NCBI GenBank assembly: GCA_019694575.1
Contig: JAIBBR010000052.1
Span: forward strand, 1-33,641
Length of the DNA: 33,641 nucleotides
Origin: Myxococcaceae bacterium
GTDB taxonomy: Bacteria > Myxococcota > Myxococcia > Myxococcales > Myxococcaceae
Reading direction: 5' to 3'
Shown: in pieces, positions 24,038-30,427 of the stretch
How the letters are laid out: every line of letters starts with the position of its first letter
How positions within the stretch are numbered: the stretch's first letter is position 1
Notes under the pieces: generated by a model
Told to the model about the DNA's origin: nothing
What the model saw: the letters and a program-made list of their open reading frames with translations, nothing else
The model's database searches: none
Program-made: the position numbers and the translations under genes

Positions 24038-25803
24038 CGCGGCTCCTGGAGCAACCTGCGAGCCGTGGCGGCCAACCCCGCGGCATCGAGGCCGAGCATT
24101 TGACGCTGGGTGCGTGCATCGCCGTGGCGAATGAAACGCTCAGCCGGCAGACCCAAGCACGTGGTGCGAGGTACGAGGTGGTGACGAGACAGCCACTCGA
24201 GCACCGCGCTACCGAGGCCACCTTCGACGGTACCTTCTTCAAGCGTGATGACGACGTTCGAGGCCGACGCTTCGTACAGCGCTTCTTCATCGAGCGGGGC
24301 CACGCAGCGCAGGTCGAGCACGTTCCACGGTTGATTTTTTGCCGCTTCGAGCGCGCCCCAGAGCAGTGGGCCAACACCGGCGAAGGTCAACTTCGCCGAA
24401 GCGTGACGCGTGAGCCAGCGGGCGCGCGGCCACGGCGGGGCCTCGTCAAGCCAAGCCGGCACTTGCGGCAACGTTCCCCGGGGAAAGCGCAGGGCAAATG
24501 GCGTCTGCACCGTGAGCGCATATTCAAACGCCGCAAGCAACTCACTCTCGTCAGCGGGCGCGGCCACCCGAAAACCCGGCAGATTGCGCAGCAACGCGAG
24601 GTCGAACGTGCCTTGGTGAGTCGCTCCGTCGGCGCCCACCAAACCTGCGCGATCGATGGCGAAGATGACCGGGAGCTTGGGCAGCGCCACGTCATGCACG
24701 AGTTGATCGTACGCGCGTTGCAAGAAGGTCGAATAAATGCAGCACACCGGCCTCATGCCCGCACGCGCCAAGCCCGCGCTCATCGTCACCGCATGCTGCT
24801 CAGCGATGCCCACGTCGAAGACCCGCGCGGGGAAGCGAGCGGCGAGCGCGGTGAGGCTCGAGCCTTCGAGCATCGCGGGAGTTACCGCCACCACCCGGGG
24901 GTCAGCCGCCATGACTTGCTCGAGCGCCGCGGCGAAGGCGTCGCTGAAAGTGCGTTGGCCCCGCGCTCGCACCAGCTTGCCATCGCGCCACTGGTACGGC
25001 CCCATGGCGTGCCCTTTGGTCGCCACGTCGGCCATCGCAGGTGAAAAGCCGCGGCCCTTTTCGGTCATCACATGCACCACCACGCTCTTCAGTGCCCGGC
25101 GGGCTTCGGCCAGTGCTTCGAGGAGCGGGCCGAGTGCGTGGCCATCAACGGGGCCGATGTACGTGAAACCCAGCGACTGAAAATAAGCGCGGGCCTCATG
25201 GCGGAGCAGGTGCGAAACCGCTCCCACGTTGCGCGAGATGCTCATCTCGTTGTCGTTGAGCACCACGGTCAACTTCACGTCGGCGTAGCCCGCATTGTTG
25301 AGGCCTTCGAAGGTGAGCCCGCCGGTCATCGCACCGTCGCCCACCACGGCCACCACCTGGCCCGGCTGCGCGAGCAGACGCTTGCCATGGGCAATGCCCA
25401 ACGCAGCAGAAACCGCCGTGCACGCATGCCCCGCGGCGAAGGCGTCGTGCTCGCTCTCTTCGGCGTCGAGAAACGGGGCGATGCCGCCGGCCTGGCGCAG
25501 CGTGCCGAAGCGCCCAGCGCGGCCGGTGAGCAACTTGTGGGCGTACGCTTGGTGGCCAACGTCGAAGACAATGCGATCGACCGGTGATTTGAAAACGCGG
25601 TGGAGCGCGACAATCAGCTCCACCGCTCCGAGTGACGCGCCGACGTGCCCCCCGACCCGGCCACAGACGTCGATAATGTCTTGTCGCAGCTCGGCACAGA
25701 GTGAAACCAGCGACGCTTCGGGCAGCGCACGCAGCGCGGTGGGTGAATCGACTTTTGACAGCAGGCTAATGGCGGCGCTCCAGCGCGTAAGCAGCCAGCG
25801 CAT
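24034..25803 (-). CDS. dxs: 1-deoxy-D-xylulose-5-phosphate synthase, loop-deleted form
   Basis: Thiamine-diphosphate enzyme that condenses pyruvate and glyceraldehyde-3-phosphate in the first step of the MEP isoprenoid pathway. Motifs include GHVGASLGAVEL, the ThDP site GDGAMTGG with downstream NDNEMSIS, AEQHAVT with its catalytic Glu, YSTFLQRAYDQ and DRAGLVGADGATHQGTFD. The long flexible stretch between the SISRNVG and YIGPVDGH motifs is reduced to about 20 residues versus about 60 in E. coli. The ATG at 25803 has no ribosome-binding site and adds residues atypical of DXS. An ATT at 25770 with GGAG seven bases upstream would start at (I/M)SLLSKVDSP, the expected N-terminus. It overlaps ispA either way. 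Confidence 0.93.
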   Translation of the reverse strand: MRWLLTRWSAAISLLSKVDSPTALRALPEASLVSLCAELRQDIIDVCGRVGGHVGASLGAVELIVALHRVFKSPVDRIVFDVGHQAYAHKLLTGRAGRFGTLRQAGGIAPFLDAEESEHDAFAAGHACTAVSAALGIAHGKRLLAQPGQVVAVVGDGAMTGGLTFEGLNNAGYADVKLTVVLNDNEMSISRNVGAVSHLLRHEARAYFQSLGFTYIGPVDGHALGPLLEALAEARRALKSVVVHVMTEKGRGFSPAMADVATKGHAMGPYQWRDGKLVRARGQRTFSDAFAAALEQVMAADPRVVAVTPAMLEGSSLTALAARFPARVFDVGIAEQHAVTMSAGLARAGMRPVCCIYSTFLQRAYDQLVHDVALPKLPVIFAIDRAGLVGADGATHQGTFDLALLRNLPGFRVAAPADESELLAAFEYALTVQTPFALRFPRGTLPQVPAWLDEAPPWPRARWLTRHASAKLTFAGVGPLLWGALEAAKNQPWNVLDLRCVAPLDEEALYEASASNVVITLEEGTVEGGLGSAVLEWLSRHHLVPRTTCLGLPAERFIRHGDARTQRQMLGLDAAGLAATARRLLQEPR

Positions 25804-26677
25804 GCAGCGGGCCCGGCAGGGGCTCGAGCCTTTGCACTGCGGCCTGGGCGCGCACCACTTCGGCCCGTGCCAAGGTACGAGACGCTTCAAGGCCAAGCAC
25901 GGCGGGAAAAGTGAAGCGACCCGCCGCGGCGTCGGCGCCCGTGGGTTTGCCCATGGTTTCGGCGGTTGACGTGACGTCGAGCAGATCGTCAGCGATTTGA
26001 AAGGCCAAGCCTACCGCGGCGCCGAAGGTGTCGGCCGCTTCGAGCTGGGCCGCGTTGCCCTGCGCGGCGATTACCCCCATGCGGCAAGCAGCCTTAATCA
26101 GCGCTCCGGTCTTTCGCGCGTGCAATTGGCGCAGGTAGCTTTCAGTCGCTGGGCGATCGGCGGCGATGTCGAGCACTTGGCCGGCGATCATTCCCGCGGC
26201 GCCAGCGGCGTGGGCGAGCTCAGCGACAAGGCGGCAGCGGGCGGCGCTCTCTTCGACCGGGGTGGCGTGCGTCAGCAGCGTGAAGGCTTCGGTGAGCAAC
26301 GCGTCACCTGCGAGAATGGCCATCGCTTCGCCGTACACTTTGTGGCTGGTGGGTCGGCCGCGACGCAAGTCGTCGTCGTCCATCGCGGGCAGATCGTCAT
26401 GAACCAGCGAATACGTGTGCACCCATTCGGTGGCGCAGGCGGCGTCATCGGCGATACGGCCGGCACGCCCACTGGCTTGCAGGGTGGCATCGGCGAAGGC
26501 AAGACAGAGAACGGGCCGCAAGCGTTTGCCTCCCCCCAGCAGCGAGTAGCCCATGGCACTGAACAAGCTGTCGGGCACAGTGCCGCGCAGCGCTTCGACC
26601 CGCTCGAGGAGCGCGGCTTCAACCCGCTTTTGTTGCATGACGAGCCACGGCGCGAGCTCGAAGGAGTGGGCGCTCAT
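25766..26677 (-). CDS. ispA: Farnesyl/polyprenyl diphosphate synthase
   Basis: Trans-prenyltransferase that adds isopentenyl diphosphate to allylic primers, most likely giving farnesyl diphosphate for lipid carriers, quinones and myxobacterial terpenoids. It has the two aspartate-rich motifs, DDLPAMD in VHDDLPAMDDDDLRRGRPTSHK and DDLLD in AFQIADDLLDVT, plus GGGKRLRP near residue 50. The 303-residue length fits the family. Chain length cannot be settled; two residues between the Asp pairs of the first motif support the bacterial FPP/GPP type. ATG 26677 has AAGG seven bases upstream, overlapping the xseB stop (TAAGG). It leads directly into dxs. Confidence 0.94.
   Translation of the reverse strand: MSAHSFELAPWLVMQQKRVEAALLERVEALRGTVPDSLFSAMGYSLLGGGKRLRPVLCLAFADATLQASGRAGRIADDAACATEWVHTYSLVHDDLPAMDDDDLRRGRPTSHKVYGEAMAILAGDALLTEAFTLLTHATPVEESAARCRLVAELAHAAGAAGMIAGQVLDIAADRPATESYLRQLHARKTGALIKAACRMGVIAAQGNAAQLEAADTFGAAVGLAFQIADDLLDVTSTAETMGKPTGADAAAGRFTFPAVLGLEASRTLARAEVVRAQAAVQRLEPLPGPLHALAAYALERRH
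25768..25781 (-). promoter_or_regulatory. Shine-Dalgarno and possible ATT start of dxs
   Basis: GGAG (25778-25781) lies seven bases before an in-frame ATT (25768-25770), which shares one base with the ispA TAG stop. This spacing is ideal. ATT starts are rare but known (E. coli infC). The alternative ATG at 25803 has no such site. Confidence 0.45.
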
Positions 26678-26686
26678 GCTACGGCC

Positions 26687-27013
26687 TTAAAAGGGCACGT
26701 CGTCGTCGTGGCGCGGTGGTGAGCGGCGGGCGGGGGCACGGGGCGAGGGCGCTGTCGGCCCCGACGGCGAAGGGGGCGGCAGCGCGAGTGTTTGGGTGCG
26801 CCCTTCGTCGCTCAGCAGTTGTTCCACCCGCTTTTCCGCTTCACCGAGCAGCTTTTCGCCGCGCTTGACGAGGTTGATGCCTTCGCCGAATTTTTCGAGC
26901 GACTCTTCAAGTGACAGCTCACCACCTTCGAGCGCTTCTACCACTTGGCGAAGGCGCTCGACGACGTCGCTGTACTGTTCGCCCTTCGCCACCTTCGGCG
27001 TCTCGCTGCCCAT
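26687..27013 (-). CDS. xseB: Exodeoxyribonuclease VII small subunit with SSB-like C-terminal tip
   Basis: Small helical subunit of the XseA-XseB ExoVII nuclease, which degrades single-stranded DNA to oligonucleotides. Residues about 14-67 are the normal core (YSDVVERLRQVVEALEGGEL, then SLEESLEKFGEGINLVKRGE). The protein then continues as a Pro/Ser/Arg-rich linker (about 71-101) and ends exactly in HDDDVPF. That ending is nearly identical to the DDDIPF tip of E. coli SSB, which docks DNA-repair enzymes. At 108 residues it is about 30 longer than E. coli XseB. I start it at ATG 27013; upstream in-frame sequence would overlap xseA. It lies 58 bases after xseA and nine before ispA. Confidence 0.92.
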   Translation of the reverse strand: MGSETPKVAKGEQYSDVVERLRQVVEALEGGELSLEESLEKFGEGINLVKRGEKLLGEAEKRVEQLLSDEGRTQTLALPPPSPSGPTAPSPRAPARRSPPRHDDDVPF

Positions 27014-27071: not shown

Positions 27072-28700
27072 CTACCCAGGCTTGAGCGGCCCACCGGGGC
27101 GAATGGCCGTCACCGCCGCTTCCAACTCGTCGTCGGCCAGCTGCACGCGCACCATGTCGCCCACCGCCAGCGAATGGGCATCGGTGAGCAAGTGGCCGTC
27201 ACCCGCCGAGAACGTGAGCGAATAACCACGGCCCAACACTTTGAGCGGGCTCAACGCGTCGAGCGTCTGCGCCAAGTGCTGCACGGTGTGCCGCTGCGAA
27301 ACCAGCCGCGCGCGCAACGGAGGCAGCAAGCGCTGCTTCAATGCTTTCAACTCCACAGTCGCCGCGCGAACTTTGGGCACCACTGACGCGCGTTCCCACC
27401 GCACCGCGAGGCCCTGCCACCGCGCGCGCTCGCCACGGAGCATGCCCAACTGAGCCATGTGCAAGCGTTCGCGCAGCCCCGCCAGCTCGCGCCGCATTTG
27501 AGCCAACTGCGCTTGGGGCCGTGCCTTTTGCAGCCGCTGCTCGAAATGCTTGAGCTGCTCCCGCTCGCCACGCACCTGCCCACGCCACTGCCTGGCCATG
27601 CGTTCCGTAAACTCAGCCAAGGTGAGCCGCTGCGTCGAAAGCACTCGACGCGGATCTTCGATGCGCGCCTTCAAACCCAGCAGTGAAGCTCGCTCATGCA
27701 CCAGATGGCGCTCCCACGCCTTTTCGAGCCGCCGCGCTTCAACCTTCAGCGTCAACACCAACTCAGTTAACACCGGCGCCAATACTTCTGCCGCGGCGCT
27801 CGGCGTGGGAGCCCGGTAGTCAGCCACCAAGTCGGCCAACGTGACGTCGACCTCGTGGCCCACCGCCGACACCACCGGCACCGGGCACGCGAAGATGGCC
27901 CGCACCACTGCTTCTTCGTTGAAGGTCCACAAGTCTTCAACCGAGCCTCCGCCGCGCGTCACCACAATGACGTCGACATCGGTTCGCGCCAAGGCGTTGA
28001 TCGCCCGAACGACTTCACCTGCCGCGCCCTCACCTTGCACCCGCGCGTCGTGCACCAGCACCGCCAAATGCGGGTGTCGCCGATGCAGCACCTTCAAAAA
28101 ATCTTTCCACGCCGCTCCCGACAAACTGGTCACCACGCCGATGCGCCGGGGCAAAAACGGCAACGGGCGGCGCGGCTTCACCCGCTTCGGCCCGAACAAC
28201 CCTTCGGCCAAAAGCCGCTCTTTGAGCTGCTCGAAAGCCAGCGCCAGCGCTCCCACGCCGGCCGGTTCGATGCGATCGATGATGATGCTGTAGCGCCCTT
28301 GTGGAGCGAACAAATCAATCGCTCCTTCCACCACCACCTCGAGCCCGTCTTTGAGGCCAAACTTCAGCCGGCTCGCCTTGCTTTGCCACAGCTTGACGTC
28401 AATCGACGCATCGGCGTCTTTGAGCGCGAAGTACAAATGGCCACGCCCGTTCGGCCCGCGAAAGCCCGACACTTCGCCCCGCACCATGACGTTGCGAAAG
28501 TTGCGTTCCAACGTCGACTTCAAATGGCGCGTCAGCTCGCCCACCGAGAGCACCGCTTTGGGAATGGCGGGCTCAATGGGCTTCACCACCACGGGAGCAG
28601 GCGGCGGCTGCGACTTTGAAACGGGAGCAAGTTTGGAGGGGACTGCGTTTTCTTGGGGAGCCGGCGAATCAGAGGCCCCGAACAAATCACCCTGCTTCAT
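27072..28700 (-). CDS. xseA: Exodeoxyribonuclease VII large subunit with N-terminal extension
   Basis: Catalytic subunit of ExoVII. The family N-terminus (LSVGELTRHLKSTLE) begins only at residue 51, followed by the OB-fold (VMVRGEVSGFRGPNGRGHLYFALKD within about 70-150). The nuclease domain has IGVVTSLSGAAWKDFLKVLHRR, the GGGS-EDLW segment (VVTRGGGSVEDLWTFNEE) and GHEVDVTLADLVADYRAPTPSAAAE. A long coiled-coil arm and the RGYSLTF tail region complete it. The first 50 residues are extra: QGDLF at 3-7 resembles the sliding-clamp-binding pentapeptide, and the rest is Pro-rich and probably flexible. The ATG at 28700 sits in TGATG with the FHA-gene stop. Confidence 0.95.
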   Translation of the reverse strand: MKQGDLFGASDSPAPQENAVPSKLAPVSKSQPPPAPVVVKPIEPAIPKAVLSVGELTRHLKSTLERNFRNVMVRGEVSGFRGPNGRGHLYFALKDADASIDVKLWQSKASRLKFGLKDGLEVVVEGAIDLFAPQGRYSIIIDRIEPAGVGALALAFEQLKERLLAEGLFGPKRVKPRRPLPFLPRRIGVVTSLSGAAWKDFLKVLHRRHPHLAVLVHDARVQGEGAAGEVVRAINALARTDVDVIVVTRGGGSVEDLWTFNEEAVVRAIFACPVPVVSAVGHEVDVTLADLVADYRAPTPSAAAEVLAPVLTELVLTLKVEARRLEKAWERHLVHERASLLGLKARIEDPRRVLSTQRLTLAEFTERMARQWRGQVRGEREQLKHFEQRLQKARPQAQLAQMRRELAGLRERLHMAQLGMLRGERARWQGLAVRWERASVVPKVRAATVELKALKQRLLPPLRARLVSQRHTVQHLAQTLDALSPLKVLGRGYSLTFSAGDGHLLTDAHSLAVGDMVRVQLADDELEAAVTAIRPGGPLKPG

Positions 28701-30427
28701 CACTGACCCATTTTTTTCAGCCAGCCGCGTGCCTTCTGGTTCAATTCGTTGTCTTTGGCGGTGGCGGCGATCACTTCTTTAAAGAGACGAATTGCCATTT
28801 CGGGGTCGGTGTCTTTGACCTGATAGGCCTGTTGGTACGTCTCTTTCGCAAAAGCCGCGGCCTCGCTCACAATCGCACGGGCCTGAACATTGTCTTCATC
28901 AACTTGTAAAATCTGCTCGGCATATTCAGACGCCTTGGCCCAGTCGCGGTTCGACTTCGCCCGCTGCGCCACGATCAACCCGCGCCCCACCAACTGCACG
29001 CCAATTTTCTTCGACATCTGGCTCTTGCTGCCGCTGCCCGCGCTGATTTTGCGATCGAGCACCGCAAGCTTCATCAACTCGGGAGCCGATGCCGCCTCGA
29101 GCTTGCCGTACGCACCGATGAATTCTTTGATCATTCCCTGCAGCGCGCGGCACTTGGCATTCTTGTTCGCGCAGGCTTGGGCCATCGAAAACGCGGTGTT
29201 GAAATCGCCGTCGTTGTACCGTTGCTGCACTCCGCGGTCTGACGCGTCAGCCGGAGGCGGTGGCGGCTTTCGCCCGTCTTTGATGCGTTCAAGCGCGTCG
29301 AGGGCCAGTTTTTTGAACTCCAGCGCGTCGCGCTGCTCGGGCCGTGCACCGAGCACGTCTTGCGATATCGCCAGCAAACGGTTCATCTGTGCTTCGTCAG
29401 TGGTGGCCGACAACAACAGCCGCGCCTTCTCGAGCGAGCGGGCGACCAACGTATCGAGATCATTCTTTAAGGTCGCGCGCAACTCGCTTTGCAAGGTATC
29501 GGGGCTGACTTTTTCGAGCGCAACCGAAGCTTCGGTGATTTTTCCCTCGACGATCGCCGACCGCGCTTCGGCAAATAACTTCTGATTGGGAATTTCCTTG
29601 TCGGCCTGGCGCAAATAATCAGCCACCGTGGCCGCTTCGAAGCTCTGATCTCGCTGCACAATCTCGTCAAACTTCTCTTTCGCTTCGGCCCATTTGCCGT
29701 CACGCACCAACCGCTTCGCGTCTTGTTGAATGACGCGCAGCTCATTCACCGCTCGTTGCCGCTGCGCCTCGGCTTGCGCCACCCGGCTGGCATCGATGCT
29801 CTGCTTCACTTTCCAACCGATGAGCGGCAGCGCGACCACGGCTACCGCAATCGCCATGCGCACTTTGAGCTGCTTCTGCTTGGCTTTGAACTCGGGGTCG
29901 GTACGGCGCGCCATGCTGCGCGACAAGGTACGCACCGGGCGGCGAACGCTCCGTGCCATCGCCGAGGGCTCTTCGGCCCGCTCGCCGTTTCTACCCGAGC
30001 GGCGCACCGCCAAGGCACTGCTGGCACCTGCGGGCGTGGCCGAATGAAACCGAAGGTCGGTATCGCCCAGCGAAATGACGTCGCCATCATTGAGCGGTGT
30101 CTCAGCCGAAATCTGCGCGCCGTTAATCAACGTGCCATTGCCTGACCCCAGATCGACCGCCGCCCAACCTCCCGGCACCTGTTTGACTGTCACATGGCGG
30201 CGAGACACCGACGTATCGGGAATCGAAATGGCGTTTTCTGAGGCACGGCCCACCACCAACTCGGCGCCTTCGAGCATGAATTCTTGCCCGGTGGCTGGGC
30301 CGGCCGTGCACACCAACTTCGAAGCCCCTCCCGACGGCGTACGCCGGGGCCGCGACGCGCTGGGCCCCTGCCCGGCAGACGACGACGGGCGGCGGCGAAC
30401 GGGGCTGCCATTGGGCGGCTGCGACAT
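28700..30427 (-). CDS. FHA-domain membrane protein with TPR-like C-terminus
   Basis: A 575-residue protein. A basic disordered N-terminus (1-35) precedes an FHA domain (about 38-128) with GRASE at 60, SRRH at 75-78 and GSGNGT at 94-99, so phosphothreonine binding is likely. A second basic linker leads to one transmembrane helix (about 190-207). The remaining 365 residues are helical and TPR-like (KRLVRDGKWAEAKEKFDEIV, then YQVKDTDPEMAIRLFKEVI) and would lie across the membrane. It starts nine bases after tadC and overlaps xseA as TGATG. FHA proteins occur in several Tad loci, so a role in regulating the pilus platform is reasonable but inferred. Confidence 0.85.
   Translation of the reverse strand: MSQPPNGSPVRRRPSSSAGQGPSASRPRRTPSGGASKLVCTAGPATGQEFMLEGAELVVGRASENAISIPDTSVSRRHVTVKQVPGGWAAVDLGSGNGTLINGAQISAETPLNDGDVISLGDTDLRFHSATPAGASSALAVRRSGRNGERAEEPSAMARSVRRPVRTLSRSMARRTDPEFKAKQKQLKVRMAIAVAVVALPLIGWKVKQSIDASRVAQAEAQRQRAVNELRVIQQDAKRLVRDGKWAEAKEKFDEIVQRDQSFEAATVADYLRQADKEIPNQKLFAEARSAIVEGKITEASVALEKVSPDTLQSELRATLKNDLDTLVARSLEKARLLLSATTDEAQMNRLLAISQDVLGARPEQRDALEFKKLALDALERIKDGRKPPPPPADASDRGVQQRYNDGDFNTAFSMAQACANKNAKCRALQGMIKEFIGAYGKLEAASAPELMKLAVLDRKISAGSGSKSQMSKKIGVQLVGRGLIVAQRAKSNRDWAKASEYAEQILQVDEDNVQARAIVSEAAAFAKETYQQAYQVKDTDPEMAIRLFKEVIAATAKDNELNQKARGWLKKMGQ

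Follow-up and report, generated by a model that had tools for sequence, protein, structure and literature searches.

We analysed a stretch of 33,641 nucleotides from a Myxococcaceae bacterium (the window). Its minus strand carries xseA, xseB, ispA, dxs and a tlyA-like gene, where the last three names are ones that we presume from the sequences. The xseA gene (27072..28700), for the large subunit of exonuclease VII (ExoVII), encodes a Pro-rich N-terminal arm. We took the ATG at 28700 as its start, and the open reading frame (ORF) also has an in-frame upstream start at 28703. The xseB gene (26687..27013), for the small subunit, lies directly downstream of xseA among the minus-strand ORFs. Its likeliest start is the ATG at 27013, which gives a protein of 108 amino acids with a C-terminus like that of the single-stranded DNA-binding protein SSB. 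The protein matches PF02609 over residues 15-65 (E 2.8e-14, 53.3 bits, cut-off 24). This family occurs in a single copy in the whole genome, and the window has no second XseB. The gene that we take to be ispA (25766..26677, minus strand) starts 9 bases past the xseB stop.

The conserved core of XseB spans about residues 14-68 (26810..26974), as judged from the Pfam match and from an AlphaFold2 model built on a 34-sequence alignment. The model has two helices (residues 14-30 and 35-70) with pLDDT mostly above 88. XseB has no OB fold: its core is these two helices, and PF02609 is the sole domain above its cut-off. From about residue 71 the tail is unstructured, with block mean pLDDT values of 56-68. 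The core is followed by a linker (26708..26809) that lacks secondary structure, has abundant Pro, Ser, Ala and Arg residues, and varies in length and sequence among relatives. The last codons, CAC GAC GAC GAC GTG CCC TTT TAA (26687..26710), spell HDDDVPF and a stop. The SSB-type tip DDDVPF (26690..26707) is thus the extreme C-terminus. A first-pass annotation had described a Pro/Ser/Arg-rich linker past the core and HDDDVPF exactly at the stop; the ORF and its codons bear this out, with a linker of about 35 residues instead of the 30 or so given there. The E. coli entry 8txr lists 16 XseB chains.

The same annotation had proposed comparing XseB tails with the SSB C-termini of the same organisms, and the two signatures match. 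The SSB of the source genome ends in GGDDIPF, and all 30 Myxococcaceae SSB proteins that we read end in [DE]D[IV]PF. We searched the 5,277,581-base genome with GAYGAYVTNCCNTTYTRR, a back-translated pattern for D-D-[ILVM]-P-F-stop. It matches at exactly two sites, XseB and SSB, while the reversed control gives 0. A looser pattern, in which each acidic position may be D or E and the hydrophobic position any codon with a middle T, finds the same two genes only (control 3). Across 156 genomes of the phylum, the tip pattern has 235 sites versus 24 for the control. The 86 genomes of the bacterium's own family contribute 166 sites (control 10), and 54 of these genomes have exactly two sites.

The XseB tails reported below were counted from sequences that we read, and not from the phylum list of pattern sites. 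We also chose and read 28 regions with a tip pattern outside XseB (8 from one set and all 20 from another). They comprise seven SSB proteins, five UvrD/PcrA-type helicases, six copies of an orphan protein, two kinase-like proteins, one Cas2 (CT1978), a second XseB fragment, a phage SSB-like protein (L191; phrog_378, E 0.0016) and a phage-linked protein to which no function is assigned (phrog_10048). The other four have no real end, being either a 5-residue ORF or a match with TGG in place of the stop. The kinase and Cas2 matches may be due to chance. The orphan protein (MSEQ...FPNYGRSKGxPI...DLEYYANGARRSLADPSK...) ends in DDDIPF or DDDVPF in L182, L185, L186, L187 and L189, all of genus g8, and in L178 (G133); Pfam and PHROG scans of the L182 copy gave no match. 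The two kinase-like proteins (L183 and L184, in g8 genomes) differ from each other, and both end in DDDIPF.

XseB was found in 90 of 96 Myxococcaceae genomes, with matches in 22 genera. We read 87 of its C-termini, leaving out three that are truncated where a contig stops (G061, G065 and G074). Non-conservation of the tail in relatives had been set beforehand as the refuting test; in fact, 85 of the 87 proteins end in [DE]-D-[VIT]-P-F, with Pro-Phe directly at the stop codon. Among these 85, position -3 is Val in 81, Ile in 3 and Thr in 1. Asp occupies position -4 in every one, D or E occurs at -5 in all 85, and D or E at -6 in 83. The linker is 27-45 residues long by our script's definition (median 36). 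Its sequence is not conserved and its length varies, and the tip is always fixed at the stop codon.

This tip peptide is under strong protein-level selection, because codon changes in its last four residues are almost only synonymous. The fraction of nonsynonymous differences, N/(N+S), is 0.05 for the tip (DxPF), compared with 0.46 in the core and 0.68 in the linker; these are pair counts whose events are not independent, and the contrast is large. The count used 81 of the 85 tipped sequences, since the script's motif missed L065, L082, L088 and L092.

The only tip-less XseB proteins among those read in the family belong to two reduced genomes of one genus (G085 and G086; 2.7 and 2.1 Mb), whose SSB proteins are still tipped (L305 and L298). 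The tip is present at all 16 named loci L202-L217, including those of Hyalangium versicolor (L217) and Corallococcus carmarthensis (L207). One of these loci, L214 (BNCN01000007.1), is labelled Comamonas sp. KCTC 72670. Its XseB is of the Myxococcus type, and the C-terminal part that we read is identical to that of L025 (G066), so the label is probably wrong. Three genomes (G040, G042 and G043) have a second, divergent PF02609 paralogue (L089, L090 and L091), whose end, where read (L089 and L090), is acidic (EDDAE) and lacks Pro-Phe.

In the rest of the order, we read 46 complete XseB proteins and left out L112, which is cut. The tip is absent in families f2 (0 of 10), f3 (0 of 23) and f4 (0 of 1), and the single f5 protein has the variant end DDPDIAF. 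All three f6 proteins are tipped (DDDVPF, GDDIPF and GDPVPF), as are the one f7 protein (DEDVPF), two of five in f8 (DADIPF and DDNIPF) and one of two in f9 (DEDLPF). Elsewhere in the phylum, 1 of 32 proteins read is tipped (L151, ending in DPDKIPF). This patchy distribution implies several gains, several losses or both. The tip is dispensable for ExoVII as such, given that all 33 readable f2 and f3 proteins lack it. None of the XseB proteins that come from outside Myxococcota, among the 80 named loci read, has a proper tip. The nearest is Candidatus Eisenbacteria L223, which has GELPF on a long linker, in a genome whose SSB ends in DDDIPF. Two other tails from this group end in GKLPL (L229) and GELLF (L233), and the three could represent an independent or degenerate case.

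Although f3, which we take to be an Anaeromyxobacter-like family, has tip-less XseB proteins, many of its genomes have a second tip-pattern site. Among the matches listed, a GTN-type site accompanies the SSB-type site in 9 of 17 f3 genomes. The five such sites that we read encode UvrD/PcrA-type helicases ending in GDDVPF. L174 matches UvrD_C in a Pfam scan (E 1.7e-48), and L175, L176, L180 and L181 are classed with it by their evident similarity. In E. coli, UvrD and ExoVII both take part in excision steps, for example in mismatch repair.

The N-terminal arm of XseA carries a conserved motif of its own. In the window, the protein begins MKQGDLFG, and its QGDLF (28680..28694, minus strand) resembles the consensus of the beta-clamp-binding pentapeptide. 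The motif QxDLF occurs in 20 of 23 Myxococcaceae XseA proteins with a readable arm, while one has QGNLF, one has QKELF and that of G086 has none. Not included in this count are L202 and L212, which are cut, L319, a fragment with QADLF, and L326, which is unreadable. The QxDLF-type motif sits in the Pro-rich arm, 51-118 residues ahead of the XseA core, and its codons differ at synonymous positions within the family. QFDLF also occurs in XseA of families f2, f7 and f8 (L225, L237, L336 and L219), and three of four f3 proteins have TGDLF. The motif is older or wider in spread than the XseB tip. It looks like a peptide for binding the beta clamp (DnaN), and we regard it as putative. Some Deltaproteobacteria or Proteobacteria metagenome-assembled genomes have DLPLF or GLPLF at a similar place in XseA (L226, L240, L243, L259 and L277).

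From the sequence, conservation, selection and co-occurrence of the XseB tip, we infer its binding, partner and pathway. The XseB C-terminus is probably a short linear motif that docks ExoVII on repair proteins that bind the SSB C-terminus (SSB-Ct), as it has all the features of an SSB-Ct ligand. In SSB-Ct complexes, according to passages of two papers, the terminal Phe enters a hydrophobic pocket, a basic lip contacts its carboxylate and a basic ridge contacts the Asp residues; loss of the Phe abolishes binding (PMC10164576; PMC4846377). On each XseB of an ExoVII particle, a disordered tether would hold out DDDVPF with its Phe carboxylate free, and such tips would fill the SSB-Ct pockets of at least one SSB-interacting repair protein. 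During digestion of single-stranded DNA (ssDNA) in tracts of excision or end processing, ExoVII might thereby be physically coupled to SSB partners or might take partners over from SSB. The first-pass annotation had suggested that the tip could recruit SSB-binding proteins, among them RecO and PriA, or compete with SSB, a proposal that our results support in part. Candidate partners in our view are RecJ and RecO. RecJ is suggested by its being an ssDNA exonuclease, and it binds SSB-Ct in Deinococcus in the account seen in part of PMC4846377. RecO is encoded in the source genome and is named as an SSB-Ct binder of E. coli in an excerpt of PMC7913777.

Besides the conservation and selection of the tip, the unconserved linker ahead of it and the retained upstream xPF site, the docking proposal draws on two further observations: in its own genome the tip occurs only on SSB and XseB, and in f3 an excision-type helicase is tipped while XseB is not. 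Three points count against it, namely the tip-less XseB proteins of f2 and f3, the loss of the tip in G085 and G086, and a difference at position -3. There, the Val that predominates in XseB is set against Ile in 29 of 30 SSB proteins of the family, although other Myxococcota also have SSB proteins with Val (L196, L197 and L298). This difference may reflect another affinity or another partner, and the two tips perhaps share no partners.

The main rival explanation is that the tip docks inside the enzyme, on the OB fold of XseA or on another XseA site, and regulates access to DNA. The acidic tail of SSB can contact its own OB fold, and the XseB tip is likewise acidic and tethered near an OB protein that binds ssDNA. 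Any fixed pocket would explain the strict conservation of the tip, and the preference for Val is unlike SSB. However, the f3 helicase has the same tip and no known link to XseA. Moreover, the whole SSB-Ct signature is copied, including the terminal Phe, and XseA proteins of tip-less families are similar enough to be detected with the XseA of the window. We consider docking within the enzyme unlikely.

Alternatively, the tip could be a decoy, in which excess XseB titrates SSB partners off ssDNA and so limits or times recombination. Each XseA is accompanied by many XseB copies, as the chain count in 8txr also illustrates, and these bear the same tip as SSB. On the other hand, there is no evidence of free XseB, and a role in recruitment fits conservation across 22 genera at least as well. 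This alternative seems to us improbable.

It could also be supposed that the tip does not mimic SSB at all and represents the usual C-terminal xPF motif of XseB proteins, set on a longer spacer. In most XseB proteins that we read, PF indeed occurs about 10-20 residues past the core. Yet that canonical motif is internal, with a few more residues after it, whereas the tip always reaches the stop codon and is preceded by two or three acidic residues. Tipped proteins also have both sites. At the canonical place, Myxococcaceae XseB has A-P-L (78, 95 and 94% at the three positions), and the three f6 proteins keep the canonical PF with the SSB-type end about 25-40 residues further on. The persistence of A-P-L and the co-occurrence of PF and tip in f6 argue that the tip is not a drifted canonical xPF, and the double-motif proteins rule out that origin. 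They largely refute the longer-spacer explanation, to which we assign very little probability. The SSB-type tip is an addition to an otherwise ordinary XseB.

Finally, the acidic PF end could be functionless or kept at the DNA level for translation of the adjacent ispA, but chance is ruled out by the pattern counts against controls in the genome, where only XseB and SSB match, and in the phylum, and a constraint from ispA is ruled out by the codon data, in which synonymous sites vary freely and residues stay, so that we give this explanation practically no weight.

If docking on SSB-Ct partners is correct, a nuclease bears an SSB-Ct ligand that is selected across a family, and the identity of a hub can be copied. 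Repair partners would perhaps be handed from SSB to the nuclease, and ExoVII, an enzyme with an ill-defined role in repair, would be physically wired into the repair network. A single conserved peptide also offers a simple assay, for which a point mutant known from SSB can serve as the control. More speculatively, ExoVII could be a hub-wired excision nuclease, in which the XseA-arm peptide sits on the sliding clamp and the many XseB tips gather SSB-Ct partners. The SSB tip would then be a transferable tag on ssDNA-excision enzymes of Myxococcales, with XseB as its carrier in Myxococcaceae and some neighbours, and a helicase of the UvrD/PcrA type as its carrier in the Anaeromyxobacter-like family. 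We put this wider scheme forward tentatively, and lean somewhat against it.

SSB-Ct is usually taken as a signature of SSB, in which one hub serves many clients that bear pockets. The first-pass annotation knew of no SSB-type tip in ExoVII, and our search of the open-licence literature agrees: it returned no such description, and the motif of DdrB was the sole precedent found. The parts, SSB-Ct and XseB, are known, and their combination is apparently unreported. SSB-Ct (MDFDDDIPF in E. coli) and the XseB tip are alike in their acidic residues, hydrophobic residue, Pro, terminal Phe and disordered linker. However, SSB-Ct is borne by an OB-fold protein that binds ssDNA and has Ile, whereas the XseB tip sits on a helical-core subunit of a nuclease and mostly has Val (81 of 85). 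Ordinary XseB proteins (PF02609; 8txr of E. coli and 1vp7 of Bordetella) share the helical core, the neighbouring xseA and the upstream xPF-like site, but they lack the extra linker and SSB-type tip of the Myxococcaceae protein. DdrB of Deinococcus radiodurans is, like XseB, a non-OB protein with a purported SSB-like C-terminal motif, although, as portrayed in sections of PMC3834827, it binds and anneals ssDNA and is no nuclease, and the motif is reported there to be unnecessary for radioresistance. RecJ, RecO, RecG, DinG and other SSB-interacting proteins are also linked to SSB via SSB-Ct. In these proteins, it is the pocket that is carried, whereas XseB carries the ligand.
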